From Mageeibacillus sp. UBA5770 (lineage in GTDB: Bacteria; Bacillota_A; Clostridia; Saccharofermentanales; Saccharofermentanaceae), in the NCBI GenBank assembly GCA_002418705.1, contig DIEQ01000068.1:1-10992 (forward strand): DNA of 10,992 nt. Reading direction: 5' to 3'. A program made the position numbers and the translations under genes. Shown here piece by piece: positions 32-10,992 of the stretch (position 1 is its first letter; each line of letters begins with the position of its first letter). The notes under the pieces were generated by a model. That model searched no databases, was not told where the DNA came from, and saw only the letters and a list, made by a program, of their open reading frames with translations.

Positions 32-97
32 TAAACTATTTGAGGTTCATTTGGTAAATTATGAAAGGCCGTATTTCGGCTCTTTTGAAATAGTTTA
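32..97. repeat. Perfect 10-bp inverted repeat with nested hairpin in a leader
   Basis: TAAACTATTT at 32-41 is matched by its exact reverse complement AAATAGTTTA at 88-97. Between them is a smaller hairpin with arms GCCG at 68-71 and CGGC at 77-80. The whole structure lies in the predicted 5' leader of the gene to the left. It could be a pair of operator half-sites or an RNA structure. It has no U-tract that would make it a clear terminator. Confidence 0.5.
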
Positions 98-107
98 CAA
101 ATGTTCC
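94..107. promoter_or_regulatory. Candidate operator, site A of a shared motif
   Basis: The plus strand reads TTTACAAATGTTCC, which contains the 8-mer ACAAATGT at 97-104. The complement differs by one base in 14 from GGAACCTTTGTAAA at 3037-3050 upstream of the kinase gene. The core lies 25 bases downstream of the predicted -10 at 130-135, a position typical of a repressor or roadblock site. A diverged inverted copy lies at 44-58 (GGTTCATTTGGTAAA). The regulator that binds is unknown. Confidence 0.5.
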
Positions 108-129
108 TGGTGTTGTATCGTTTGTCTAT

Positions 130-158
130 ATATTAGCGAGTTTTGTACGGCATGTCAA
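130..158 (-). promoter_or_regulatory. Sigma-70-type promoter for the gene left of the window
   Basis: On the minus strand there is a perfect -35 TTGACA (153-158), a 17-base spacer, and a -10 TAATAT (130-135). Transcription would start near position 123, leaving a leader of more than 120 bases before the off-window gene. CATGTC overlaps the -35 at 151-156 and recurs upstream as an inverted pair. Confidence 0.65.
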
Positions 159-190
159 GTTTATTGTTACAGTTATTGGGGTGTGATTTC

Positions 191-212
191 GACATGTTTA
201 ACAGTTCATGTC
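191..212. repeat. GACATG/CATGTC inverted repeat upstream of promoter
   Basis: GACATG at 191-196 and CATGTC at 207-212 form a perfect 6-bp inverted repeat with a 10-base gap. It lies about 70-90 bases upstream of the predicted start of the leftward transcript. A third CATGTC at 151-156 overlaps the -35 box. The placement would suit an activator site; this is inference from position only. Confidence 0.35.
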
Positions 213-226
213 TATGGCCGAAGATA

Positions 227-262
227 AAATGTCCGCTTAACACGATTGCTAAGCGGACATTT
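227..262 (-). terminator. Terminator of the kinase-isomerase operon
   Basis: Perfect 13-bp arms (AAATGTCCGCTTA at 227-239 and its complement at 250-262) enclose a 10-base loop. It starts 21 bases beyond the stop codon of the isomerase gene. On the minus strand the stem ends in TTT and continues TATCTT, a modest U-tract, so termination is likely but not textbook-strong. Confidence 0.75.
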
Positions 263-283
263 GAGTTCTTATACAAATTGATT

Positions 284-1477
284 TTATTTAGCTAGCCGAT
301 CCAGCAATTCATCTAAAGGAATGCCGTCTTCCGGGACAAATTGACGCCAGTAAACAGCGGTCTCCTTCAGCTTATCAATAATGTCATATGTATATTCGGT
401 ATTTGATCCGAAGATCTCAAAGTTCAGATAGAGATCATCCACTTTGGGCGGCATATCAGGCCCGATATTGTTTTCATAAGAAACCGCTATAGCCTTGAGC
501 AATTCCGGTCCCATGATAATTCCTTTGCCGTTGGTGTCGGCAGTAAACGCCGAATGAGGAGCCGAAATGCCATCTGTCTGCTGCATATGAATGATAGGCG
601 AGTAACACGCCAGCTTCTCAAGCCACGCATAGGGGTCCTGATCTTTGGGATCAATGGAGAACATATACGCGTATTTATCCATACTTTCACAGATAGCCTG
701 AGCGGCTTCCCCGTGATTTTGCCCGGTTTTTACTGCATGGAACCAGATCGAGCGTGTCTCGTCCGCACCAAGCCACATGGACGGGCGTGCTGTCTCCCCG
801 TCTGCTTTTTGCAGGCTGTCAACAATCTGTTCCTTTGACGGACGGACGAATTTCCTCTGGCCGACAATATGGCCGACATCAACCGTTGTATATACGGGTT
901 TCTGATTCAGCTGATAACAGTCGCGCAGGAAATCGATGGTTCCCTGAATCGTCCACGGCGGCTGATGAGGAGCATACATCTGCTCGACGCAAAGATTCAC
1001 ACCTCCCAGTTCATCGGCATATGCCGTCAGCTCACACATCCGTTCAACAAGCTTGCGGTAGACAGTCTCGTAGAGAGCCGGGTCCTGAAGGACATTGTCC
1101 GGAAGGGCATGGAAATAGAAGCCCATTCCCGCATCAGCCTTCTTTAATCTCTTGATCATTGGCTTGAGCCAATTATCTATAAGGTGCCTGACCATGCGCT
1201 CATCAGGATGCGTGAGGCCGGCCGTACGGTACGTCTGATAACCCGTGAAAAAATTAGCGACTTTTACGCCATATTCCCTGCCAAGGGTATCAATGGAATC
1301 AAACCAGTCATCCATATAATCCTGAGGCGAAAAGAGTCCGTCAATCTCATTATCAAAACTTGCTTCACTATAATTGAACCCGATTTCCTTAGTCAGCTTC
1401 AGCCAGTGTTTGGGTTCCACCCAGCGCTTGATGGCAAAGCAGTTATCTAAAGCCAGATATATTCTCGGATATTTCAT
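284..1477 (-). CDS. TIM-barrel sugar (phosphate) isomerase/epimerase
   Basis: This 397-residue protein looks like a xylose-isomerase-like TIM barrel (AP endonuclease 2 superfamily), whose members move carbonyl or hydroxyl groups on sugars using a divalent metal. Likely metal ligands are E165 (in VEQMY), D200 and H203 (in DVGH), H297 and E354 (in NFEIF). No signal peptide is visible, so it is cytoplasmic. It is longer than the usual 270-300 residues of the epimerases, with extra sequence around residues 206-295. The start is supported by AGGAG at 1483-1487, five bases upstream. Only 17 bases separate it from the kinase gene, so the two are co-transcribed and probably act in sequence, the isomerase on the kinase product or on the kinase substrate. 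The exact substrate is not recognisable. An L-rhamnose-isomerase-like role is a less likely alternative. Confidence 0.8.
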   Translation of the reverse strand: MKYPRIYLALDNCFAIKRWVEPKHWLKLTKEIGFNYSEASFDNEIDGLFSPQDYMDDWFDSIDTLGREYGVKVANFFTGYQTYRTAGLTHPDERMVRHLIDNWLKPMIKRLKKADAGMGFYFHALPDNVLQDPALYETVYRKLVERMCELTAYADELGGVNLCVEQMYAPHQPPWTIQGTIDFLRDCYQLNQKPVYTTVDVGHIVGQRKFVRPSKEQIVDSLQKADGETARPSMWLGADETRSIWFHAVKTGQNHGEAAQAICESMDKYAYMFSIDPKDQDPYAWLEKLACYSPIIHMQQTDGISAPHSAFTADTNGKGIIMGPELLKAIAVSYENNIGPDMPPKVDDLYLNFEIFGSNTEYTYDIIDKLKETAVYWRQFVPEDGIPLDELLDRLAK

Positions 1478-1494
1478 ATTATCTCCTAACTGTA

Positions 1495-2985
1495 TCAGAC
1501 AATTTTAGCAATTGATTTGTAGTGCTCGTATGCAGTGTCCCACTCCGCCGAATTGGCCGGAGCATATTCGATTGTCTCGTAAGAATTTTTGCAGAGCTGA
1601 CGGCCTTCTGATACGTTCGAAATCTTACCGTCGGCCATCAGCTGGAATATCAGGTTGCCGACAGAAGTTGTTTCAGTGGGTCCTGCAATAACCGGGATGC
1701 CTACAGCTTCTGCTGTCCAGCGGCACAGCAGTTTGTTCTTCGTACCGCCGCCGATCAGGTGGAGCAATTCGAACTCGCCTTCGGTAACCGTGCGCATATC
1801 GGAGAAACTGGACTTGAATTTGAGAACCAGGCTTTTCAGGATGCACCGCGCTGTTTCGCCGATGGTTGCCGGAACATCCTGCCCCGTCTGACGGCAGAAC
1901 TCGGCAATCACGCCCGGCATATCTTCCTGGTATTCGCCAAATCGGGCATCATCAACATCAATAATAGAGTTCTGGAGTGCAGAGGCTTCCGCGAGTTCGT
2001 CGATATAATCCCAATCGATTTCTTCACCTTTTTCCTTATTCCACTTGTTTCTGCACTGCTGCAGAATCCACAGACCTGTTATATTGCGCAGAAGCATGTT
2101 CTTGCCGGAGACGCCGCCTTCATTCCCGCATTTGATATCAACAACACGCGGATCAAGGACAGGCTCGTCCGTCTCCAGACCGGCTATGCACCAGGTACCC
2201 AGACTGATGAATCCCCATTTGCGGGAATGGTCAGTCACAGGGATTCCTGCTACTGCAGACGCAGTGTCGTGTGTTGCCGGAACAATGACGGGTATCGATT
2301 CAACACCGAGCTCACGGCAGACTGCCGGACTCAGTTTGCCAAGCTTATATCCCGGTTCAACAAGTTTTGTCAGCATATCATTACGGAGACCTAATTTTTC
2401 AAAAATAGCCGGTTCCCACTGGCGGGTCTTTTGATTGGCTAAAAGCGTCATCGTAGCATTGGTAAATTCATTGGCAATCTCACCGGTCAGGAAATAATTG
2501 AAGAGATCGGGCATCATCAGTAATTTGTGAGCCTCTCTATATTCGACAGCCTGTTCTCTCATCAACGCATATAGCTGATAAATACCCATAATACGGGTAC
2601 TCGGACCGCCCGAGAGCTGAAAAAGCTCAGGCTCAGGTAATGTTTCGTGCAGTTGGGAAGAATAATCGTAACGCTTGGCATCACGATACGTATTAGGGTT
2701 GCCGATTAGGCGTCCCTGCTTATCAAGCATGCCAAAATCGCAGCCCCAGGTATCAATGGCGAGGGATTTGCAGGGACCGTACTTCTTCTGGCTCAGCTGA
2801 ATGCCGATCTTGATTTCAGATAAGAGTCTGAGCACATCCCAGAAATATTCTCCCTGATTCGCAAATACCGGCCGATTGTCAAAACGATGGATAATATCAA
2901 ATTCAAATCGATCTCCATAATATTTGCCGACTACTGCCCGTCCATTGCTGGCGCCTAAATCAAATATTAAATAATTATCACTCAT
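1495..2985 (-). CDS. FGGY carbohydrate kinase, rhamnulokinase type
   Basis: The 496-residue protein is a full-length FGGY-family kinase (usual length about 480-520) that transfers phosphate from ATP to a ketose. Visible motifs are the N-terminal nucleotide loop DLGASNGRAV from D9, AIDTWGCDFG around 76-85, YRDAKR at 100-105, PATHDTASAV with the probable catalytic base D240, and IGGGTKN at 411-417 for adenine and phosphate binding. These motifs resemble RhaB more than xylulokinase or glycerol kinase. No rhamnose isomerase or rhamnulose-phosphate aldolase of the standard families is in the window, so rhamnulose may not be the substrate. The start has AGGAGG at 2995-3000, nine bases upstream. It is the first gene of a two-gene operon driven by the promoter at 3095-3123. 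Confidence 0.88.
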   Translation of the reverse strand: MSDNYLIFDLGASNGRAVVGKYYGDRFEFDIIHRFDNRPVFANQGEYFWDVLRLLSEIKIGIQLSQKKYGPCKSLAIDTWGCDFGMLDKQGRLIGNPNTYRDAKRYDYSSQLHETLPEPELFQLSGGPSTRIMGIYQLYALMREQAVEYREAHKLLMMPDLFNYFLTGEIANEFTNATMTLLANQKTRQWEPAIFEKLGLRNDMLTKLVEPGYKLGKLSPAVCRELGVESIPVIVPATHDTASAVAGIPVTDHSRKWGFISLGTWCIAGLETDEPVLDPRVVDIKCGNEGGVSGKNMLLRNITGLWILQQCRNKWNKEKGEEIDWDYIDELAEASALQNSIIDVDDARFGEYQEDMPGVIAEFCRQTGQDVPATIGETARCILKSLVLKFKSSFSDMRTVTEGEFELLHLIGGGTKNKLLCRWTAEAVGIPVIAGPTETTSVGNLIFQLMADGKISNVSEGRQLCKNSYETIEYAPANSAEWDTAYEHYKSIAKIV

Positions 2986-3036
2986 TCAGAGCATCCTCCT
3001 AATTGTAAGATAGATGAATTTTTCCGCGTCATTTAG

Positions 3037-3068
3037 GGAACCTTTGTAAATAAAGTATACATTTGTTC
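3037..3068. promoter_or_regulatory. Candidate paired operator, sites B and C
   Basis: Two facing half-sites, GAACCTTTGTA (3038-3048) and TACATTTGTTC (3058-3068), are separated by nine bases and share the inverted pattern GAAC-N3-TGTA / TACA-N3-GTTC. Their centres are 20 bases apart, about two helical turns. The right half holds the shared 8-mer ACATTTGT at 3059-3066. The left half, extended to GGAACCTTTGTAAA (3037-3050), matches site A at 13 of 14 positions. The pair lies in the leader of the kinase operon, 28 to 58 bases beyond the -10. Confidence 0.55.
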
Positions 3069-3094
3069 ATATGCTTGTTAATTATGTTGCTTCA

Positions 3095-3123
3095 ATTCTA
3101 GCATCGCATATTAGTACTGTCAA
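3095..3123 (-). promoter_or_regulatory. Promoter of the kinase-isomerase operon
   Basis: On the minus strand a perfect -35 TTGACA (3118-3123), a 17-base spacer and a -10 TAGAAT (3095-3100) are present. Transcription would begin near 3088, giving a leader of about 100 bases. It lies between the terminator of the transporter operon (3172-3202) and the kinase start, so this unit is expressed independently of the transporter. Confidence 0.7.
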
Positions 3124-3171
3124 CAGGCGAAAGGGTTCGTTTACTGCCTTTGTCTGTAAGCCCGGTCAAGA

Positions 3172-3202
3172 AAGATCCGGACAAATGATTTGCCCGGATC
3201 TT
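3172..3202 (-). terminator. Terminator of the ABC transporter operon
   Basis: Outer arms AAGATCCGG (3172-3180) and CCGGATCTT (3194-3202) are perfect complements. After one mismatch the inner arms CAAAT (3182-3186) and ATTTG (3188-3192) continue the stem. It lies 35 bases past the permease stop codon. On the minus strand the stem ends in CTT and continues TCTTGACC, so the U-tract is interrupted. Confidence 0.65.
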
Positions 3203-3237
3203 ACTTTCTTCACAGCTATAATATGATGCCTGTTTAA

Positions 3238-4242
3238 TCATGTTGTTGATTTGCTTTTTGCATTGGAGAATTTCTGCAGTAGGACAGCAGCCAGGATAAT
3301 AATGCCCTTAATTACCTGCTGAGGATATGCGGGAACCTTCATCAGGTTCATGATATTGCTGATCAGGCCGAGTGTAAAAACACCGAAGATCGTTTTCACA
3401 ACACTGCCGCGTCCGCCGTTAAGACTGGCACCGCCGATAACGGCAGCAGCAATGGCATCCATTTCTGTTCCGTCACCAACCAGCGGTGAACCAACACCGG
3501 TACGGCCGCTTACGATAATACCTGCGATCGTAGAAAAGACACCGCTGATGCAGTAGACAGACATTTTATATCTGTTGACCCGAACACCGGAAAGGCGGAC
3601 GGCTTCTTCGTTGGATCCGATTGCCATGACGAGGCGGCCATAGGTTGTAAAACGAAGGACAAGGAACATGATGACAAAAATTGCCAGCATGACATAGAAC
3701 TGACTCGGAAGACCGATGAAGTATGTACGGCTGAATTCAATAAACCCTTTATCTTTGATCTGGATAGAAGCTCCGTTACAGATAATATAGGAAGCACCTT
3801 TTGCAATGGATAAGACAGCCAAAGTTACGACGAACGGAGCAAGTTTCTGATAGGCTACCATGTATCCGGAAATAAGTCCGCATAAAAAACCGGCAAAAAC
3901 CGCATATAGTAATGCCACAATAAACGGCTGTCCGGTCTTGAGTGTGTATGCAAAAATAATATTTCCCAGTGTTAGCCCTGCGCCGACCGACAGGTCAATA
4001 CCGCCGGTCAGAATTACCATGAGCATACCAAAGCTGACAATACCCAGGCTTGCATTCTGACGAAGCAAATTGGTCAGGTTGCCCTCGGTAAAGAAATTAT
4101 CGGTCATGATAGATGAAAAAATAACCAGCAGCAGAAATATATAGATTGTATTATTGCGGTTAATATTGGACAGAACTCTTTTAAACGTGATCCCTTCCCG
4201 CGGGAACTTTTCAGCCTTCATTGGAGTGTTTGCGCTTGACAT
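3238..4242 (-). CDS. Simple-sugar ABC transporter permease (RbsC-like)
   Basis: The 334-residue protein is a polytopic membrane permease of the branched-chain/simple-sugar family (BPD_transp_2). It starts with about 30 polar residues, followed by hydrophobic segments throughout, the first near residues 31-46. Family signatures are GGIDLSVG at 80-87, the cytoplasmic coupling stretch GSNEEAVRLSGV at 209-220, and AAVIGGASLNGGRGS near 266-280. Length matches RbsC. Two copies would form the membrane channel and couple to the ATPase encoded just upstream. The start has a perfect AAGGAGG at 4251-4257 with an 8-base spacer. It is the last gene of the operon, 70 bases after the ATPase stop. Substrate cannot be deduced from the permease alone. 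Confidence 0.93.
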   Translation of the reverse strand: MSSANTPMKAEKFPREGITFKRVLSNINRNNTIYIFLLLVIFSSIMTDNFFTEGNLTNLLRQNASLGIVSFGMLMVILTGGIDLSVGAGLTLGNIIFAYTLKTGQPFIVALLYAVFAGFLCGLISGYMVAYQKLAPFVVTLAVLSIAKGASYIICNGASIQIKDKGFIEFSRTYFIGLPSQFYVMLAIFVIMFLVLRFTTYGRLVMAIGSNEEAVRLSGVRVNRYKMSVYCISGVFSTIAGIIVSGRTGVGSPLVGDGTEMDAIAAAVIGGASLNGGRGSVVKTIFGVFTLGLISNIMNLMKVPAYPQQVIKGIIILAAVLLQKFSNAKSKSTT

Positions 4243-4312
4243 CGATTGTTCCTCCTTAAGATATTAACAATATATACTGGATTAAGCCTTTTTTTATCTC
4301 TGGATCAGCGTG

Positions 4313-5860
4313 TTAACCGGCAATGCCTACTGAGAAATTAATAATTTTCTCCTGTGAAATTTCACCCCGTTTAAGCTCCGCCATGGGAATACCTTTGTTC
4401 AATACCAGAACCCTGTCACTTAGTCCAATAATCTCTTCAATTTCAGAAGAAATCAATACAATGGCCAGGCCGGAGTGTGTCAGTTCATTGATCAGATTAT
4501 ATATTTCAATTTTGGCACCAATGTCAACTCCACGCGTCGGTTCATCGAGCAGAATAACTTTATTGCCGGCGAACAGCCATTTACCTATGCTGATTTTTTG
4601 TTGATTTCCGCCGCTCAAGCTGCCGACTTCAATTTCGGTTCCGTCTGTTTTTACGCGTAAAACATCAATCAGCTTCTTTACTTCTTTCTTTTCCAGAGCA
4701 CTTCGTACCACACCCATAGCCGTGGAAATTTTTCTTAAGTTTGCCATTGTCGTATTAATTCGAACAGAGGAAGATAATATGATTCCGTGTTCCTTACGGC
4801 TTTCAGGTAAATAACCTATGCCAGCCGATACAGCCTGCGACGGGGAAAACAGATTCAGCTTCTCTCCCATCAGCTCAACGATACCGCTATCCCGTTTGTC
4901 AGCCGCGAAAATAGCACGTGCCAGTTCGGTTTTACCGGCACCGACCAATCCGGAAATTCCGTATATCTCACCGGCATGGACTTCAAAGGAGACGTCCTGG
5001 ACGCGTTGTCCGGAACAGATGTTACTTACTTTCAGTACCGTTTCACCCAGTACTGCATTGCGATCGGGGAACAATGACGAGTAACTTCGTCCGATCATCA
5101 TTTGAACAATGCTGTCAATATTTGTCTCTTTGGTATTTACCGTATCTACAACTTTACCGTCCCGCATTACTGTAATCCGGTCAGACAATTCGAAAATTTC
5201 ATCTAATCTATGTGATATGTAGATGATGCTTACTCCGTTTGCCTGCAGATTGCGAAGCAAATCAAAAAGTCTTTTCGTTTCATATGGAGATAATACAGCC
5301 GTTGGTTCGTCGAGTACAAGGACCTTGACGTCTTCGCTCATGGCTTTGGCGATTTCAACGATCTGCTGATACGCTACACTCAATTCTCCTAAAATCATTT
5401 TGGGATTAATATCAAATCCGATTTTTGTGATAATCTCGCCGGCGTCCCTGTACAATTTCGGCCAATTAATTAATCCCCTGTTGTTGCCGATATCCAGCCG
5501 GTTCATAAATATGTTTTCAGCTACAGTCAGGTCCGGAGCGAGGGCAAACTCCTGATAGATAATTCCCAAGCCTGCTTTATGTGTTTCAATGACACTGTTC
5601 ACGGAGAAGTGCTTGCCATTGACATAGATTTCACCTTTATCTTTTTGATATGCACCGGACAGAATTTTCACCAAAGTTGACTTTCCGGCACCATTTTGAC
5701 CAACCAGAGCATGAATTTCACCATATTTGACACGTAATGATACATTTTCCAAAGCGTTTACGCCGCCGAATGCTTTATAAATATTACGGAGTTCAATATT
5801 GTATTTTTCCTGGTCATTTTCATTTGTCGTGCTCTCGGAGCTTTTTTCTGCGGTTATCAT
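4313..5860 (-). CDS. Simple-sugar ABC transporter ATPase, two domains (RbsA/MglA-like)
   Basis: The 515-residue protein carries two nucleotide-binding domains in one chain, as is usual for ribose, galactose and xylose importers. Domain 1 has Walker A GQNGAGKST with K60, Q-loop Q103, signature-like LSVAYQQ from 160, Walker B with D184-E185, and switch H217. Domain 2 has GLVGAGKTE as Walker A, signature LSGGNQQK, and an intact LLDEPTRGVD with D439-E440. The first 18 residues are polar and precede the domain proper. It is encoded between the binding protein and the permease and should energise that transporter. The ribosome binding site (AGGAAG, about ten bases from the start) is weaker than those of its neighbours, which together with the upstream hairpin may lower its expression relative to the binding protein. 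Confidence 0.94.
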   Translation of the reverse strand: MITAEKSSESTTNENDQEKYNIELRNIYKAFGGVNALENVSLRVKYGEIHALVGQNGAGKSTLVKILSGAYQKDKGEIYVNGKHFSVNSVIETHKAGLGIIYQEFALAPDLTVAENIFMNRLDIGNNRGLINWPKLYRDAGEIITKIGFDINPKMILGELSVAYQQIVEIAKAMSEDVKVLVLDEPTAVLSPYETKRLFDLLRNLQANGVSIIYISHRLDEIFELSDRITVMRDGKVVDTVNTKETNIDSIVQMMIGRSYSSLFPDRNAVLGETVLKVSNICSGQRVQDVSFEVHAGEIYGISGLVGAGKTELARAIFAADKRDSGIVELMGEKLNLFSPSQAVSAGIGYLPESRKEHGIILSSSVRINTTMANLRKISTAMGVVRSALEKKEVKKLIDVLRVKTDGTEIEVGSLSGGNQQKISIGKWLFAGNKVILLDEPTRGVDIGAKIEIYNLINELTHSGLAIVLISSEIEEIIGLSDRVLVLNKGIPMAELKRGEISQEKIINFSVGIAG

Positions 5861-5889
5861 GTTTCACCAGCTTCCTACTTCATTTGCAA

Positions 5890-5926
5890 TGGGATTGTGC
5901 CGCCAGCTTTTGACGGCACAATCCCA
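5890..5926 (-). repeat. Intercistronic hairpin between binding protein and ATPase genes
   Basis: Arms at 5890-5902 and 5914-5926 are perfect 13-bp complements around an 11-base loop; the core is GGGATTGTGCCG. On the transcript it follows the binding-protein stop by 27 bases and has no U-tract after it. It is therefore more likely a 3' stabilising or partial-attenuation element than a full terminator. Such elements are common between binding-protein and ATPase genes, where the binding protein is needed in excess. Confidence 0.65.
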
Positions 5927-5953
5927 AACTTGGAGGGGACTTAAGTAAGTTAA

Positions 5954-6982
5954 TTAGAATGAAGAATTAGGATCGTAGTACTGATCAACGTTGTCGATCG
6001 TTACGCAGGCGGCTGTTGTATAAGTAAAGTTCGGGAATTCAGTTTCTCCTGCGAAATATCTGGCAGCAACGTCCATGGAGAGGTCACCGATCAGCTTAGG
6101 ACTGTTCAAACCTGTTGCGCCATAGTTGCCGGCCTTGATCATTTCAAAAGCTTCCTTCTGTCCGTCAGCAGCTGAAGCAATGAGTTTTCCTTCAAGCATG
6201 CCCTTCTCATCAAGAACATTCATGGCAGCCATCGTCATAACGTCAGCTTCAGACATCAGAACATTGAATTCTTCGTTCAGTGAAATAATGTCTTCCATTA
6301 CAGTAACTGCTGCATCTTCAGCCCATCCTTCGCAATAACCCTGGGCAATAATTTCGACATTGGCGGTACCTTCAGATGCCAGCTGCTCTTCAACGATTCC
6401 GTTGAGCAAGCCATCACGGCGGTCAAGTGAATTGATGGTGCCCATCTGACCGCTCAGGAGAGCAATTTTGATCGGTGTGCCTTTCATCTGCTGTGCAATC
6501 CATTTGCCAACAGCAAATCCGTTGCCATAGTTGTCAGCCTGGACGCAGGTCAATACTTTGGCTTCGGCATCAAGTGCGTTATCAATAGCGATAACGGGTG
6601 TGCCTTCATCTTTTAAGCGGTTGATTGTTTCTGTCAGAATTTGGGTATCAAATGAGTTACAGAGGATGACGTCGCATTTTTGTGTTACAAGGTCTTCCAT
6701 ATCAGCAATCTGCTTATTTGAATCACCCTGGGCATTCAGTGTAATCAGTTCATATCCTTTTTCTTTGCAAATTTCAGCTACGCGAGCCTGAATGGTAACA
6801 TAGAAAGGAATTACCATATCAATCATTGACATTCCGATTGTAAACTTGTCGCCGCTCTTTGGTGTGAGTGCACCGCCGGCGACTGCTGCTGTTGCTGAAG
6901 TATCGGCCGCTTTGGTTGTACATCCGGTAAACAGGGAAACAGCCATGACCATGCAAACGAGAATAGCGATTACTTTTTTCAT
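5954..6982 (-). CDS. Sugar-binding lipoprotein of the ABC transporter (RbsB-like)
   Basis: The 342-residue protein is a periplasmic-binding-protein type 1 solute receptor (Peripla_BP_4), anchored outside the membrane as a lipoprotein. It begins with a lysine-led signal peptide and a lipobox LFTGC, with C21 as the lipidated residue. An Ala/Thr/Ser-rich linker (about 22-40) leads into the domain at DKFTIGMSMIDMVIPFY. Family-typical pieces follow: NAQGDSNKQIADMEDLV, a CDVILCNSFDT strand, and a PVIAIDNA strand. The reading frame extends 21 codons upstream to 7045, but the start at 6982 has GGAGG at 6990-6994 with a 7-base spacer and gives a proper signal peptide. It is the first gene of the transporter operon. 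The ligand cannot be read from sequence; a sugar or polyol is expected. Confidence 0.93.
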   Translation of the reverse strand: MKKVIAILVCMVMAVSLFTGCTTKAADTSATAAVAGGALTPKSGDKFTIGMSMIDMVIPFYVTIQARVAEICKEKGYELITLNAQGDSNKQIADMEDLVTQKCDVILCNSFDTQILTETINRLKDEGTPVIAIDNALDAEAKVLTCVQADNYGNGFAVGKWIAQQMKGTPIKIALLSGQMGTINSLDRRDGLLNGIVEEQLASEGTANVEIIAQGYCEGWAEDAAVTVMEDIISLNEEFNVLMSEADVMTMAAMNVLDEKGMLEGKLIASAADGQKEAFEMIKAGNYGATGLNSPKLIGDLSMDVAARYFAGETEFPNFTYTTAACVTIDNVDQYYDPNSSF

Positions 6983-7091
6983 TTCTTTTCCTCCATTAAT
7001 TTTGCTTTTTCTAGTGTTACAAAGACACTGTGCACGAGTGTCCATAAACCAAGTGTTTAAGTCTTATACATTAAGGATCGGGAAAACAAAA

Positions 7092-7105
7092 GGTACATTT
7101 GTTAC
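7092..7105. promoter_or_regulatory. Candidate operator, site D of a shared motif
   Basis: GGTACATTTGTTAC contains the 8-mer ACATTTGT at 7095-7102. It lies in the leader of the transporter operon, 40 bases downstream of the preferred -10 (7143-7148). It would lie just upstream of the -35 if the weaker promoter TTTTGT-N17-TATAAG (7063-7091) is the real one. In the first case it suits a repressor, in the second an activator. Confidence 0.45.
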
Positions 7106-7142
7106 TCGGGTTGATTTTTTTGTAACCATTTCTGATAGCTCA

Positions 7143-7171
7143 ATTATGGCGAAGTGCGTATTAGATGACAA
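7143..7171 (-). promoter_or_regulatory. Probable promoter of the ABC transporter operon
   Basis: On the minus strand TTGTCA (7166-7171, five of six matches), a 17-base spacer and CATAAT (7143-7148, five of six) form a good promoter, giving a leader of about 150 bases. A second, weaker candidate closer to the gene has -10 TATAAG (7063-7068) and -35 TTTTGT (7086-7091). The preferred promoter lies within an inverted repeat, GCGTATT at 7156-7162 and AATACGC at 7170-7176, which spans spacer and -35 and could be an operator. Confidence 0.5.
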
Positions 7172-7176
7172 TACGC
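7156..7176. repeat. 7-bp inverted repeat over the promoter spacer and -35
   Basis: GCGTATT (7156-7162) and AATACGC (7170-7176) are perfect complements with a 7-base gap. They overlap the spacer and -35 of the predicted transporter promoter. A smaller pair, TGTGC (7211-7215) and GCACA (7221-7225), lies further upstream. Between 7046 and 7440, apart from these, the promoter, site D and the terminator, no gene is seen. Confidence 0.35.
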
Positions 7177-7279
7177 CAATTCACAGAAATGGTGTCAATT
7201 TCAAAGACATTGTGCAAAAAGCACATCACCCCGCTGGTATGGCGATACGGTTTATGCACTTTATACAAAGCTTTCATCC

Positions 7280-7330
7280 AAAAAAAAACGAAACGCAGAA
7301 TCTTTGAAATCATCAAAATTCTGCGTTTCG
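7280..7330 (-). terminator. Intrinsic terminator of the ATPase-dehydrogenase operon
   Basis: Perfect 13-bp arms at 7289-7301 (CGAAACGCAGAAT) and 7318-7330 enclose a 16-base loop. Nine A residues at 7280-7288 become a run of nine U on the minus-strand transcript. This is a textbook factor-independent terminator. It lies 110 bases beyond the dehydrogenase stop, and it separates that operon from the transporter promoter. Confidence 0.92.
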
Positions 7331-7440
7331 TCATGATGGAATGCCATCTATAAGTCAGGAATTCATGGAGGGTTTGCGTCACCGGCTGTTATGTCAGATT
7401 TGGGTTACGTCTGAACCGGCTTACTGAAGCTGTATCTGGA

Positions 7441-8517
7441 TCAGGGAACCAAAACAACCTTAATCGAATTTTCACCGCGTGAATTGAGCTCAAATGCCGT
7501 TTCCCAGTCTTCGAATGTGAAAGTATGGGTTACAACACCCTCTGTAGGTAATTTCCCTTCACTGATCCATTTGATAACCGGCGCAAAGGCATACGGACTC
7601 AGGTGAGCCCCGAGTATGTCAAGCTCCTTGCGGTCGCCGATAATCGACCAGTCGACCGTTGTTGCGGATCCGAAAACACTGAACTCCACAAAGCGCCCCA
7701 ATTTGCGGATCATACTCAAGCCCTGTGTTACACTCGACGGATGCCCGGTAGCCTCAATATAAACATCACAGCCATAACCATCTGTCATGTCCATGATCAT
7801 TTGGACAGCATCCTCTTTTCCCGGATTGATAACGACATCTGCGCCGAATTTTTTGGCGAGCTCAAGACGGTCCTGCTTCATATCGAGTACAACGAGTTTT
7901 CCGGGATTCTTCATTCTCAGGTATCCGATCATGCCTAAGCCCAATGTTCCAGCACCGGAAAGAACAACAACGTCTTCATTCGTGACGGAACCGCGGTCGA
8001 CAGCATGCTTGGCACAGGCGTACGGCTCTATCAGGGCTGCCTGTTTGGTCGGCATGTCCTTGGGAACCTTGTAAACAAGAGCTTCCTTCGTCAGTTTTAC
8101 ATACTCAGCCATACCGCCGTTAACATTGCTCTGGAATCCGAAGATGTCATGTTTCTGACACATCCAGTATTGGCCGGTCTTACAGAAACGGCAGACACCG
8201 CAAGGCACGATCTGCTCTGCTGCTACGCGGTCACCGAGCTTCATATCTCCTTTATAGTTCGGTCCGACCTCAACGATTTCACCGACAAACTCGTGACCGG
8301 GAATAAAGGGAGGCTTAACCCATGAGGGCTGTGTTTCATCACCCCAGAACATTGCGGCTCCGTGCCAGTTTTTTGTGTCCCCGGCGCATACGCCGCAGAC
8401 TTCCGTCTTAATTAACAACTCGCCTTCACCGGCACGAGGTGTGGGATATGCTTTTTCAAAACGGTAGTCATTTTTCCCGTAAAATACCAGAGCTCTCATT
8501 GTGCTTGGAATGTTCAT
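7441..8517 (-). CDS. Zinc-dependent polyol dehydrogenase, erythritol/L-threitol dehydrogenase-like
   Basis: The 358-residue protein is a medium-chain alcohol dehydrogenase (GroES-like domain, then Rossmann domain) expected to oxidise a polyol to a ketose with NAD+. Catalytic zinc ligands fit C44 (in CAGD), H75-E76 (in GHE) and E164. Structural zinc cysteines are C106, C109, C112 and C120. The nucleotide loop is GAGTLGLG at 188-195, and D212 at the end of the second strand favours NAD over NADP. Stretches such as HGAAMFWGDE, GHEFVGE, EQIVPC, VDWSIIGDRKELD and LGAHL resemble what I recall of erythritol/L-threitol dehydrogenases, but threonine or sorbitol dehydrogenase activity is not excluded. 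The frame is open to 8589, but the start at 8517 has GGAGG at 8526-8530 with an 8-base spacer and avoids overlap with the upstream gene. It is the second gene of the operon, 34 bases after the ATPase stop. Confidence 0.88.
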   Translation of the reverse strand: MNIPSTMRALVFYGKNDYRFEKAYPTPRAGEGELLIKTEVCGVCAGDTKNWHGAAMFWGDETQPSWVKPPFIPGHEFVGEIVEVGPNYKGDMKLGDRVAAEQIVPCGVCRFCKTGQYWMCQKHDIFGFQSNVNGGMAEYVKLTKEALVYKVPKDMPTKQAALIEPYACAKHAVDRGSVTNEDVVVLSGAGTLGLGMIGYLRMKNPGKLVVLDMKQDRLELAKKFGADVVINPGKEDAVQMIMDMTDGYGCDVYIEATGHPSSVTQGLSMIRKLGRFVEFSVFGSATTVDWSIIGDRKELDILGAHLSPYAFAPVIKWISEGKLPTEGVVTHTFTFEDWETAFELNSRGENSIKVVLVP

Positions 8518-8551
8518 AATATTATCCTCCTGTTTTACTGTATTATCCTGT

Positions 8552-10054
8552 TTATGTAACTGATAGCGAATCATCACTTTCAAGTTCAAGCAAAGTGTCC
8601 AAGGTCAGGTCTTGGGTAAGCCATTGTCCTTTTTCTTTGCCGTTTTTTATGGTAAGAATCCTGTGTGAGAGTGAGTATAGTTCTTCCGGCTCGGATGAAA
8701 TCAATATCATGGAAATGCCTTCATTGGCAAGGAGCTTTATCTGCTGTATTATTTCTTCCCGTGTAATTACATCTACGCCCTGAGTCGGATTCATAAGCAG
8801 CAAAATCTTCGGACGGGCTGCCAGCCATCGTGCTATCATAATCTTCTGCTGATTTCCGCCGCTTAAGTATCGAACACTCGAGATTTTATTTTGTTGTCTG
8901 ATGTTCAGATGTTTTGTCACGTCCTCAACCAGATATTTTTCCAGTTTCCGGTTGATAATTCCACAGGTACTGATATTTTTCAGAATCGGCAGGGTGATGT
9001 TCTTGTTAATTCCCTCATCGAGCAGCAATCCGTTTTTAATCCTGTCTGACGGAAGGAAGCTAATACGCAGCCTGACTGCTTTCCATGGATTTTGAATCTG
9101 AACAAGCCTGCCGTCAAACCGGATCTGTCCGGATGTCTTTGGGCAGATTCCGAACAAGACGTCAAAAATTTCTTCCTTACCCTCGTTTTCCCGGCCGACT
9201 AAACCAAGTATTTCACCGCGCCTGAGTTCAAGGGATAAATCATTCAATTTGTGAGCCGTGCTGATATTTTTGAGACTGAGCACAATGTCTGTTCCGGGTT
9301 CAAATTCCTGACGATCTATTTCAGCAGTTCTGTTCCCGACCATAATTGCAATCAGGCGATCCTTGATAAAATGAGCCCGGTCGACCGTAAGTACTGTATA
9401 GCCGTCTCTCATGATAGTAATGTGGTCAGAGATGGCCATAATTTCATTCAGGTTATGTGAGATCAGGAGAAAAGTAATTCCCTGGTCTGCAAGCCGCCTG
9501 ATGATCTGAAAAACAACACTTCTTTCAGAAGCATTCATCGACGAGGTAATTTCATCAAGGATAATCATTTGGGGCATGGACGAAATGGCTCGTGCCAATT
9601 CGATCAGGCGTTTTTGAGACAAAGATAATCCCTGCATTCTCTGACCCGGATCGATATTGGAAAGTCCAACCATTTCAAGAAACTTGTATGCCTCCTGATT
9701 CATTTTTTTCTGTTTGTGTAAAAATGCCGGTGAAGTTCCGTTTAACAGAAATATGTTTTCAGCTATCGTCAGTTCAGGTACAATCCGCATTCTTTGATGA
9801 ACACAACTGATACCGGTACCAATTGCGTCAGCTGTTTTTTCAAAATTCATCTCCTTCTCACAAAAATACATGGCACCTTCGTCTTTGGGATAAACGCCGG
9901 TCATAACATTGACCAGTGTTGATTTACCGGCACCATTTTCGCCGATTATTCCATGAATCTCTCCTTTGAGCACAGAAAGACTGACTTGATGAAGCGCAGC
10001 CGTTCCGTCAAGTATCTTCGATACATTATCCATGCGAAGAATCTCAATTCTCAT
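8552..10054 (-). CDS. Second double-domain sugar ABC ATPase, diverged, without a local permease
   Basis: The 500-residue protein has the two-domain layout of RbsA/MglA but is clearly diverged from the ATPase at 4313-5860. Domain 1 keeps Walker A GENGAGKST with K44, Q87, Walker B with D167-E168 and switch H200; its signature reads LSLSQKR from 143. Domain 2 has an aberrant Walker A (GRENEGKEE, 287-295) and a normal LSGGNQQK (397-404), but its Walker B reads LLLMNPTQGVD, with M421-N422 where Asp-Glu is expected. The site made from domain 1 Walker motifs and the domain 2 signature is complete, so ATP hydrolysis at one site remains plausible. No permease or binding protein is encoded beside it; a partner may be elsewhere or it may use the local permease. 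The start is weakly supported by AGGTGA about ten bases upstream. An alternative Met at residue 8 has no ribosome binding site. Confidence 0.88.
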   Translation of the reverse strand: MRIEILRMDNVSKILDGTAALHQVSLSVLKGEIHGIIGENGAGKSTLVNVMTGVYPKDEGAMYFCEKEMNFEKTADAIGTGISCVHQRMRIVPELTIAENIFLLNGTSPAFLHKQKKMNQEAYKFLEMVGLSNIDPGQRMQGLSLSQKRLIELARAISSMPQMIILDEITSSMNASERSVVFQIIRRLADQGITFLLISHNLNEIMAISDHITIMRDGYTVLTVDRAHFIKDRLIAIMVGNRTAEIDRQEFEPGTDIVLSLKNISTAHKLNDLSLELRRGEILGLVGRENEGKEEIFDVLFGICPKTSGQIRFDGRLVQIQNPWKAVRLRISFLPSDRIKNGLLLDEGINKNITLPILKNISTCGIINRKLEKYLVEDVTKHLNIRQQNKISSVRYLSGGNQQKIMIARWLAARPKILLLMNPTQGVDVITREEIIQQIKLLANEGISMILISSEPEELYSLSHRILTIKNGKEKGQWLTQDLTLDTLLELESDDSLSVT

Positions 10055-10091
10055 GTAGTTCCCATCACCTGTCCGACCCGCAGAAAATGTC

Positions 10092-10117
10092 TCTGGCAGC
10101 AGTCGGCAGCTGCCAGA
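10092..10117. repeat. Hairpin in the leader of the second ATPase gene
   Basis: TCTGGCAGC (10092-10100) and GCTGCCAGA (10109-10117) are perfect 9-bp complements with an 8-base loop. The hairpin is about 38 bases upstream of the ATPase start codon, inside the predicted leader. On the minus strand it is followed by GACATTTTC, on the plus strand by TTTTA. It could act as an attenuator or operator; nothing settles this. Confidence 0.45.
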
Positions 10118-10143
10118 TTTTAGTCAGCTTGCACAAAACCAAG

Positions 10144-10172
10144 TTGACATTTGTTCCTATAGGTGTTACGAT
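10144..10172 (+). promoter_or_regulatory. Candidate plus-strand promoter for the response regulator
   Basis: A perfect -35 TTGACA (10144-10149), a 17-base spacer and a -10 TACGAT (10167-10172, four of six) point toward the response regulator gene, with a leader of about 175 bases. A second candidate nearer the gene is TTAAGA (10262-10267), 17 bases, TAAAAT (10285-10290). The first overlaps both site E and the palindrome at 10166-10177, so a protein bound there could affect both directions. Confidence 0.35.
10146..10157. promoter_or_regulatory. Candidate operator, site E of a shared motif
   Basis: GACATTTGTTCC contains the 8-mer ACATTTGT at 10147-10154. It is in the leader of the second ATPase gene, 49 bases downstream of the predicted minus-strand -10 (10204-10209), and it overlaps the spacer of a possible plus-strand promoter. 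A partial relative, TTACAATGTTC, lies at 10226-10236. Confidence 0.45.
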
Positions 10173-10177
10173 CGTAA
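10166..10177. repeat. Perfect 12-bp palindrome in the divergent promoter region
   Basis: TTACGATCGTAA is fully self-complementary and overlaps the -10 of the candidate plus-strand promoter. It lies between the two divergent genes and is followed by another small inverted repeat, AGTGACTTTCACT (10185-10197). Both resemble dimer-binding operator sites. Confidence 0.4.
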
Positions 10178-10203: not shown

Positions 10204-10231
10204 ATTATGCCTCTTTATTTTTTTATTACAA
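10204..10231 (-). promoter_or_regulatory. Candidate promoter of the ATPase-dehydrogenase operon
   Basis: On the minus strand TTGTAA (10226-10231, four of six), a 16-base AT-rich spacer and CATAAT (10204-10209, five of six) form a moderate promoter. The leader would be about 140 bases and would contain site E, the 12-bp palindrome and the hairpin at 10092-10117. Confidence 0.4.
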
Positions 10232-10354: not shown

Positions 10355-10992
10355 ATGCTAAAAGTCTTGATTGTCGACGATGAAGTATGGATTTGTAAAT
10401 TGATACAACATTCGATTGATTGGGAATCTCTGCAGTTGGAACCCGTTGCGTTTGCCCATGATGGAGCTGAAGCGCTGGAAAAAATCAAAGAACTTCACCC
10501 GGACATCGTTATCAGCGACGTCCGAATGCCCGTGCTTGATGGATGTGCATTGGCAAATATAGTCAAAGACATGCAGGACCCTCCGCGAATGATCATGATT
10601 AGCGGCTATCAGGATTTCGAGTACGTTCAAAGTGCTATCAAATGCGGTGTCGTAGATTATTTATTAAAACCGTATGATGAAGATCAGCTATACCAGGTGC
10701 TAAAAAAGCTTAGCCACGAGGTACAAGTAAAATCACAAAAAGAAATTGAAACGAAGAATGTTCATATTCAGCTGTCGAACAGCATGATCAAACTGCGGGA
10801 TATGTTCCTAAACAATTTGATTTTTAACAAACAGCTCCCGTCTTCTGCAGAGCAAATCGAGCAGGATTTTCAGTTTGGCTTTGTCGACGGGATTTTTCAG
10901 ATCCTGGTGACAAGACTTGACAGCCTGCACGGAGATCCTGATAATCAACAGCTCCTTACCTACGTCCGCAACCTGATGAACAACGCCTTATC
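10355..10992 (+). CDS. Two-component response regulator, YesN-like, truncated by the window end
   Basis: The first 212 residues of a response regulator are present and the frame is open to the edge. The receiver domain spans about residues 1-120, with acidic pocket D8-D9, phospho-acceptor D55 (in ISDVRMP), switch S83 and the invariant K105-P106. The ISGYQDFEYVQSAI stretch is typical of the YesN/AraC-type regulators of Bacillota. A charged helical linker follows. The DNA-binding domain, expected to be AraC-type, and any partner histidine kinase lie beyond the window. The start is chosen for GGAGG at 10341-10345 with a 9-base spacer; an in-frame ATG at 10301 would add 18 residues but has no ribosome binding site. 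Being divergent from the ATPase-dehydrogenase operon, it is the best visible candidate to regulate these operons. Confidence 0.9.
   Translation, partial: MLKVLIVDDEVWICKLIQHSIDWESLQLEPVAFAHDGAEALEKIKELHPDIVISDVRMPVLDGCALANIVKDMQDPPRMIMISGYQDFEYVQSAIKCGVVDYLLKPYDEDQLYQVLKKLSHEVQVKSQKEIETKNVHIQLSNSMIKLRDMFLNNLIFNKQLPSSAEQIEQDFQFGFVDGIFQILVTRLDSLHGDPDNQQLLTYVRNLMNNAL

Follow-up and report, generated by a model that had tools for sequence, protein, structure and literature searches.

Regulators of rhamnose utilization are among the described systems closest to the case reported here. In the part of PMC3870299 that describes their sites, DeoR-family regulators are associated with direct repeats of 10-11 bp and AraC-family regulators with direct repeats of a 21-bp period, and RhaR of Rhizobium, a DeoR-family protein, is a negative regulator. 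Here we describe an element of about 34 bp that recurs in the leader of each of four neighbouring transcription units in a 10,992-base stretch of DNA from Mageeibacillus sp. UBA5770 (contig DIEQ01000068.1; the whole stretch is referred to as the window). The four units are a gene beyond the left edge (the left gene), a kinase-isomerase pair, a binding protein-ATPase-permease transporter, and a second ATPase with a dehydrogenase. The element is best explained as the asymmetric operator of one locus-specific DNA-binding regulator of all four units, which would be read as DNA and would block initiation or early elongation, a reading to which we assign a probability of about 0.5.

An oriented element in four leaders

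The 8-mer ACAAATGT (reverse form ACATTTGT) occurs once in each of the four leaders, at positions 97-104 on the plus strand and at 3059-3066, 7095-7102 and 10147-10154 on the minus strand. An exact count over both strands of the window revealed no copy beyond these four, in agreement with the initial annotation, which had named the same places and noticed no other copy. Its judgement that four copies are unlikely by chance is borne out by dinucleotide shuffles of the window (at least four copies in 1 of 200), while its expectation of 0.3 copies is slightly low against the shuffle mean of 0.62. ACAAATGT is the sole 8-mer common to all four leaders as cut; any common 8-mer was obtained in 10 of 3000 leader shuffles. 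The likeness that had been pointed out between the copy in the left leader (site A) and the left half of the kinase site is also real. Site A (GGAACATTTGTAAA, 94-107, minus strand) is identical at 13 of 14 positions to GGAACCTTTGTAAA (3037-3050, plus strand), an inverted partial second copy beside the kinase copy, and such a likeness of GGAACATTTGTAAA in the other three leaders is equalled in 3 of 2000 shuffles.

The likeness reaches beyond the 8-mer, which forms the core of an ungapped element of about 34-40 bp found in all four leaders, the rough 40-bp consensus of which, in the transcribed sense, is ACAWAnnnWACAACnnnAGGAACAWWTGTnAACTTTnTTT. The 34-bp copies, all on the minus strand, map to 92-125 in the leader of the left gene (copy 1, ACAAACGATACAACACCAGGAACATTTGTAAACT), 3054-3087 in that of the kinase-isomerase unit (copy 2, ACATAATTAACAAGCATATGAACAAATGTATACT), 7090-7123 in that of the transporter unit (copy 3, ACAAAAAAATCAACCCGAGTAACAAATGTACCTT) and 10142-10175 in that of the second-ATPase unit (copy 4, ACGATCGTAACACCTATAGGAACAAATGTCAACT), where the element overlaps a promoter-like site of the plus strand. 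Motif discovery on both strands yielded 179.1 bits at width 34 (null 148.2 ± 3.7), 143.3 bits at width 26 (null 122.2 ± 3.5) and 117.6 bits at width 20 (null 100.9 ± 2.6), values that were reached in 0 of 100 shuffles. At width 12, 1 of 100 shuffles reached the observed value and the both-strand solution mixed orientations, which indicates that the flanks, not the core, set the orientation. Sense-only searches returned identical sites at all four widths (12, 20, 26 and 34).

The core is nearly palindromic, as ACAAATGT and ACATTTGT differ only in the two central bases, and its strand is therefore ambiguous from the core alone. In the sense-strand alignment, the sequence is GGAACATTTGT at site A and NNAACAAATGT at the other three sites. 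In this arrangement, 7 of 40 flanking columns are invariant, versus 0.9 expected; random anchoring within these leaders, repeated 20,000 times, gave at least seven at a frequency of 5e-5. The other seven combinations of orientation give 2 to 5 invariant columns; 3 remain when site A is flipped relative to the rest, as had first been claimed. All four copies are in one orientation, that of the sense strand, and the reversal of site A was an artefact of the near-palindromic core.

Leave-one-out matrices, the ranks from which are somewhat optimistic as the limits of the element had been set with all four copies in view, placed the omitted site at the top of 21,915 positions in all four cases, and at ranks 1, 1, 4 and 1 when the 8-mer was masked. 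The copies score 38.6-41.1 bits, and the next-best place in the window, which overlaps copy 3 on the opposite strand, scores 8 bits. The element is present above chance in the leader of every unit (4/4), as an operator of these units would be, and at about 34 bp it is not easily explained by chance.

The aligned element has no inverted symmetry above that of column shuffles (p = 0.28). Symmetric positions in the central 20 number 6, 10, 10 and 8 in the individual copies, and 6 of these come from the core. A palindromic dimer site of the LacI/GntR type was rejected on this result, and the dimeric protein previously argued from a reversed orientation is not supported, as the copies share one orientation. 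With the reversed 8-mer corrected to an oriented 34-bp element, different regulators become plausible.

Promoters and the proposed operator

Two copies of the element lie just downstream of near-consensus predicted promoters of the minus strand. TTGACA-17-TAATAT (130-158) ends 4 nucleotides (nt) before the element in the left leader, and TTGACA-17-TAGAAT (3095-3123) ends 7 nt before it in the kinase leader. With a start site about 7 nt beyond the -10 box, the element would span about +1 to +40 in these two units. In two of the four leaders, a promoter scoring 10/12 or 11/12 ends no more than 10 nt before the element, and in shuffled leaders a promoter of at least 10/12 ends at most 10 nt upstream of a random point at a frequency of 0.004. 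The transporter unit has a possible promoter, TTGTCA-17-CATAAT (7143-7171, minus strand, 10/12), and the second-ATPase unit a possible weak one, TTGTAA-16-CATAAT (10204-10231, minus strand, 9/12); a further 8/12 candidate in the second-ATPase leader ends 2 nt before the element. The placement of the 8-mer between promoter and gene start, as described in the initial annotation, holds for the left and kinase leaders and is weaker in the other two. The whole scan returned 36 promoter-like sites, versus 21.2 expected, and single weak sites therefore mean little. On the plus strand, promoter-like TTGACA-17-TACGAT (10144-10172) lies within copy 4 and faces the response regulator gene. The notion that the element is itself a promoter, with the core in the spacer, was rejected: the match is good only in the kinase leader (TTAACA-16-TATACT), the others being poor by eye.

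The transporter leader also contains a long imperfect inverted repeat, ACCATTTCTG...GCGTATTgtcatctAATACGC...CAGAAATGGT, recognized by eye at 7125-7190. It is located upstream of the element, overlaps the predicted promoter and could be a second operator.

Hairpin terminators, seen directly in the sequence, follow the kinase-isomerase unit (229-260), the transporter unit (3173-3201) and the second-ATPase/dehydrogenase unit (7289-7330), all on the minus strand. None of the three was returned by the hairpin scan, in which loops were limited to 3-8.

We propose that one locus-specific regulator recognizes a 34-40 bp asymmetric operator in the leaders of the four neighbouring units. The element would be read as DNA; the bound regulator would block initiation or early elongation until the sugar or its signal releases it. 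With two strong promoters lying immediately upstream of copies of the element, repression or a roadblock is favoured, and the action of the regulator on the four units is probably negative. The functional coherence of the units, the hairpin terminators after three of them and the lack of a common RNA structure all favour an operator. Most likely, as far as the sequence can tell, one regulator switches four sugar-use operons together, which is a common kind of arrangement, and the operator of a local regulon is an ordinary kind of element. The single regulon over four units suggested by the initial annotation is backed by the statistics of the extended element (7/40 columns, 179.1 bits and the leave-one-out ranks).

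The leading candidates for the regulator are the divergently encoded response regulator, perhaps of AraC type judging from a relative, and a repressor encoded beyond the window, for instance of the DeoR type. Residues 2-190 of the response regulator are 33% identical to a response regulator with an AraC-type DNA-binding domain (locus L026), which is full-length and is encoded beside a related transporter. No DeoR domain was found among the eight window products in Pfam.

Several results weigh against the operator reading. The promoters of the transporter and second-ATPase units are weak and lie at other distances from the element (19 and 28 nt). Some copies of the element have ACA at positions 1, 10 and 22, with spacings of 9 and 12, and neither the DeoR nor the AraC repeat layout is demonstrated in the element. 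Direct repeats reach z 1.1 (p = 0.15) at lag 21 and z -0.1 and -1.2 at lags 10 and 11, and the signal at lag 9 is weak (z 2.9; p 0.003, uncorrected for the 23 lags tried). Comparisons with relatives point the same way. The element was found in 0 of 15 upstream stretches from distant relatives, three of which (L027-L029) are probably internal to an operon rather than leaders. A 40-bp model scored only the four window sites, from which it had been built, above 28 bits; its best match in 53 other loci was 12.5 bits, and across 148 Clostridia genomes, scanned with stricter filters, it had 17 matches at E up to 0.1, about 15 being expected by chance, the best at 18.3 bits.

The relatives whose DNA was compared are distant, with identities of 36-54% for the isomerase and 32-41% for the binding protein. 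The isomerase relatives are 21 loci obtained by a genome contig scan. Binding-protein matches at E <= 1e-40 are confined to six genomes (G185, G078, G919, G1199, G1261 and G1356) in overlapping sets of 391, 396, 392, 7, 1 and 394 genomes, and none was found at E <= 1e-30 in seven chosen genomes. Among 246 genomes belonging to the same order as a kinase-bearing Lachnospiraceae metagenome-assembled genome (MAG), 24 have a kinase match at E <= 1e-90, none exceeding 40% identity, and a viral scan found no relative. The initial annotation had looked to conservation upstream of orthologous operons, for which the outcome in these distant relatives is negative. Within reach of the searches made, the element would at most be specific to the lineage of the window.

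Matrix scores in the 15 stretches are not counted as conservation. Tested against 60 mononucleotide shuffles each, the short matrix gave p <= 0.05 in five (L004, L011, L012, L013 and L028) and the long matrix in four (L004, L010, L012 and L026); the long-matrix scores range from -24 to +3, versus 39-41 for the window's own sites under a somewhat different matrix. The 8-mer, or its W forms, was present in 2 of the 15, the near-identical leaders of two Micrococcales MAGs.

Other sites were noticed in these loci. The kinase leaders of the two Micrococcales MAGs (loci of 62-63% G+C) share GCAACAAATGTTGAC, a dyad. At L011:8349 and L012:224 they have in common a dyad, TGTCAACATTTGTTGCA, whose core is the same 8-mer and whose flanks differ. 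LacI-family regulators are encoded in two isomerase loci (L004:11166-12194 and L020:15954-17048), in the former directly after the isomerase gene, and the kinase leader of L004 contains a dyad, GGAACGTTTGTTAC, which is a possible site of that regulator. GCAACAAATGTTGAC and GGAACGTTTGTTAC differ from the window's element and may be sites of those lineages' own regulators.

Alternative explanations

The alternative that best withstands the evidence, in itself an unlikely one, is that the element is an activator site. The neighbouring two-component response regulator (AraC/YesN-like) would bind it and activate promoters which are located further downstream or were misplaced by the scan. This regulator is encoded divergently from the second-ATPase unit, copy 4 lies in the intergenic region between them, and the cluster of a related transporter includes a response regulator gene whose product has an AraC-type domain. 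The ACA triplets at positions 1, 10 and 22 in part of the copies likewise recall the 21-bp-period repeats described for AraC-family rhamnose regulators in the available part of PMC3870299. In contrast, the 21-bp lag is not significant, and the near-consensus promoters directly upstream in two units should need no activator and place the element past +1.

A role at the RNA level, near the 5' end of the transcripts, is less probable still and appears doubtful. The element would be the target of a small RNA or a protein, or the start of a leader peptide. The same orientation in four of four copies, which has a chance of 1 in 8, and the placement at the predicted mRNA 5' end in two units fit such a role. 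In contrast, RNAalifold predicted 0 consensus pairs for the four leaders, single-leader folds have z values of -1.0, -0.1 and +1.0, with -1.9 for the second-ATPase leader, and no Rfam match at E up to 1 falls at the element; the sole match at that level, below threshold, covers a terminator (229-292). A shared fold or known structured RNA was accordingly rejected. The view that an RNA element fits less well, put forward at the outset, thus stands as regards structure, while the constant orientation gives no ground against RNA.

As for a leader peptide, AGGAACAAATG can be read as a weak ribosome site with a start codon, and the ATG of ACAAATG opens short frames in three of four leaders (MYTLFTKVP, MYLLFSRSLMYKT and MSTWFCAS), all with phenylalanine as the fifth residue. 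The putative ribosome site is poor and close compared with the GGAGG-type sites of three window units, and at the place of the ATG the left leader has TTG followed by an immediate stop (TTG-TAA). The common phenylalanine is probably due to chance. It would be a considerable surprise if tiny leader peptides (M-[YS]-x-x-F...) near the mRNA 5' ends controlled the whole sugar regulon through translation of miniature reading frames, with no DNA-binding protein involved. Were this the case, the frames would sit behind a conserved, unstructured, ACA-rich stretch, and the left copy would be a start-stop form (TTG-TAA).

Catabolite repression, in which CcpA would bind a cre or the flexible crevar at the 3' part of the element, is improbable. 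These sites are given as TGWAANCGNTNWCA (cre) and TGTAAA/TTTACA (crevar) in the available part of PMC5263246. The left leader carries TGTAAACTATTTCA, which matches a loosened cre pattern (TGNAANCGNTNNCA) at 13 of 14 positions, and the kinase leader carries TGTATACTTTATTTACA, which matches TGTAAA-Nx-TTTACA at 11 of 12, both beginning at the TGT of the 8-mer. In the leaders of the transporter and second-ATPase units, nothing at the element matched at the same thresholds, and the conserved upstream half of the element is left unexplained. CcpA was therefore rejected as the common explanation, with sites in only two of four leaders and a loosened cre pattern; judging from these matches, it could add to the control of the left and kinase units.

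Chance sharing of the 8-mer by AT-rich leaders is very improbable. The 8-mer result is reached in 1/200 window shuffles and 10/3000 leader shuffles, and the relatives compared show no conservation, but the extended alignment exceeds the shuffle mean by about 8 standard deviations and largely persists with the 8-mer masked.

LexA (SOS) boxes can practically be dismissed. The core resembles the left part of GAAC-N4-GTTC, for which Clostridium forms with GTTC or GTTT are given in the available part of PMC4234289, but the window sites have GTAA, GTAT, GTAC and GTCA instead (the right half in 0/4) and the units encode sugar functions. GGAACAWWTGTTCC, the full palindrome, is present in three genomes that carry a related binding protein and belong to the order of genome G003, as well as in G003. 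In the three it lies upstream of uvrA, an SOS gene, between TTGAC and TATAAT (L030:27-40, L031:7715-7728 and L032:3432-3445), and NCBIfam confirmed UvrA in 3/3 downstream genes. These three copies are just upstream of uvrA and are therefore probably LexA boxes themselves; the G003 copy lies elsewhere than uvrA. The motif GGAACAWWTGT was found in 12 of 12 genomes searched, mostly at rates like those of the backwards control, which it exceeded in G185 (18 versus 9) and G1356 (3 versus 0).

Gene content and comparison with known regulators

The kinase-isomerase unit encodes an FGGY carbohydrate kinase (1495-2985), which is nearest to rhamnulokinase but below the cut-off of that family, and a 397-residue TIM barrel resembling sugar-phosphate isomerases/epimerases (284-1477). 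The transporter unit encodes a sugar-binding protein (5954-6982), an ATP-binding cassette (ABC) ATPase (4313-5860) and a permease of the ribose/arabinose type (3238-4242). The last unit encodes a second sugar-type ABC ATPase (8552-10054) and a zinc-dependent dehydrogenase (7441-8517). All these genes are on the minus strand; the response regulator gene (10355-10990, plus strand) continues past the window, which holds only the receiver end. A ribosome-binding sequence lies at the left edge, and the left gene is accordingly expected to begin just past it. The second ATPase is complete and has no permease directly beside it, and its unit contains neither a permease nor a binding protein.

The closest protein relatives are 81-88% identical. 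The binding protein is a rare one: counting that of the window, 49 proteins match at E <= 1e-40, and one homologue, 88% identical, is labelled Eubacteriales bacterium. Among solved structures, the chain nearest to the isomerase bears the name D-erythrulose 4-phosphate dehydrogenase (E 5.5e-9, 61 residues covered), and for two homologues the name given in the source is D-erythrulose 1-phosphate 3-epimerase. A kinase relative is found near the isomerase in 8 of the 21 loci, adjacent in seven (L004, L008, L010, L011, L012, L013 and L020) and 1.3 kb away, at 32% identity, in L019. Isomerase loci L004 (1371-8298) and L009 (11384-14168) also carry phosphate propanoyltransferase and aldehyde dehydrogenase genes. 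L004 additionally encodes a microcompartment shell (BMC) component, a DeoC-type aldolase and a triosephosphate isomerase, and this gene content suggests a microcompartment-linked sugar pathway.

If the operator reading is true, sequence alone defines a sugar/polyol regulon that comprises four or more transcription units and belongs to an uncultured, Clostridia-like organism. The isomerase-kinase pair, the rare transporter, the dehydrogenase and the second ATPase would then be joined in one pathway, which would narrow the substrate search. The result is relevant mainly for specialists in regulon inference.

Among the few known sites compared (cre, crevar and LexA directly, DeoR and AraC sites by description only), none appears to match the element, and a literature search with the core strings returned no bacterial sugar operator by title among the matches listed. 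CcpA sites differ in leaving two leaders without a match and the upstream half unexplained, although the 3' part of the element matches in the other two. LexA boxes are similar in the left half (GAAC) and in the spacing to GT in three of four copies, but their right half is absent from all four, and the genes are unrelated to DNA repair. In contrast to AraC-family/YesN-type regulators, the window's element lies downstream of near-consensus promoters, a place that does not fit an activator, and lacks a significant 21-bp repeat; the adjacent response regulator gene, the asymmetric site and ACA at positions 1 and 22 (21 bp) are points of likeness. Compared with the DeoR-family repressors of the RhaR groups, as far as the available description in PMC3870299 goes, the ACA spacing of 9 and 12 departs from a clean 10-11, whereas the non-palindromic site, the location in leaders of a kinase/transporter cluster and the recurring ACA blocks are alike.

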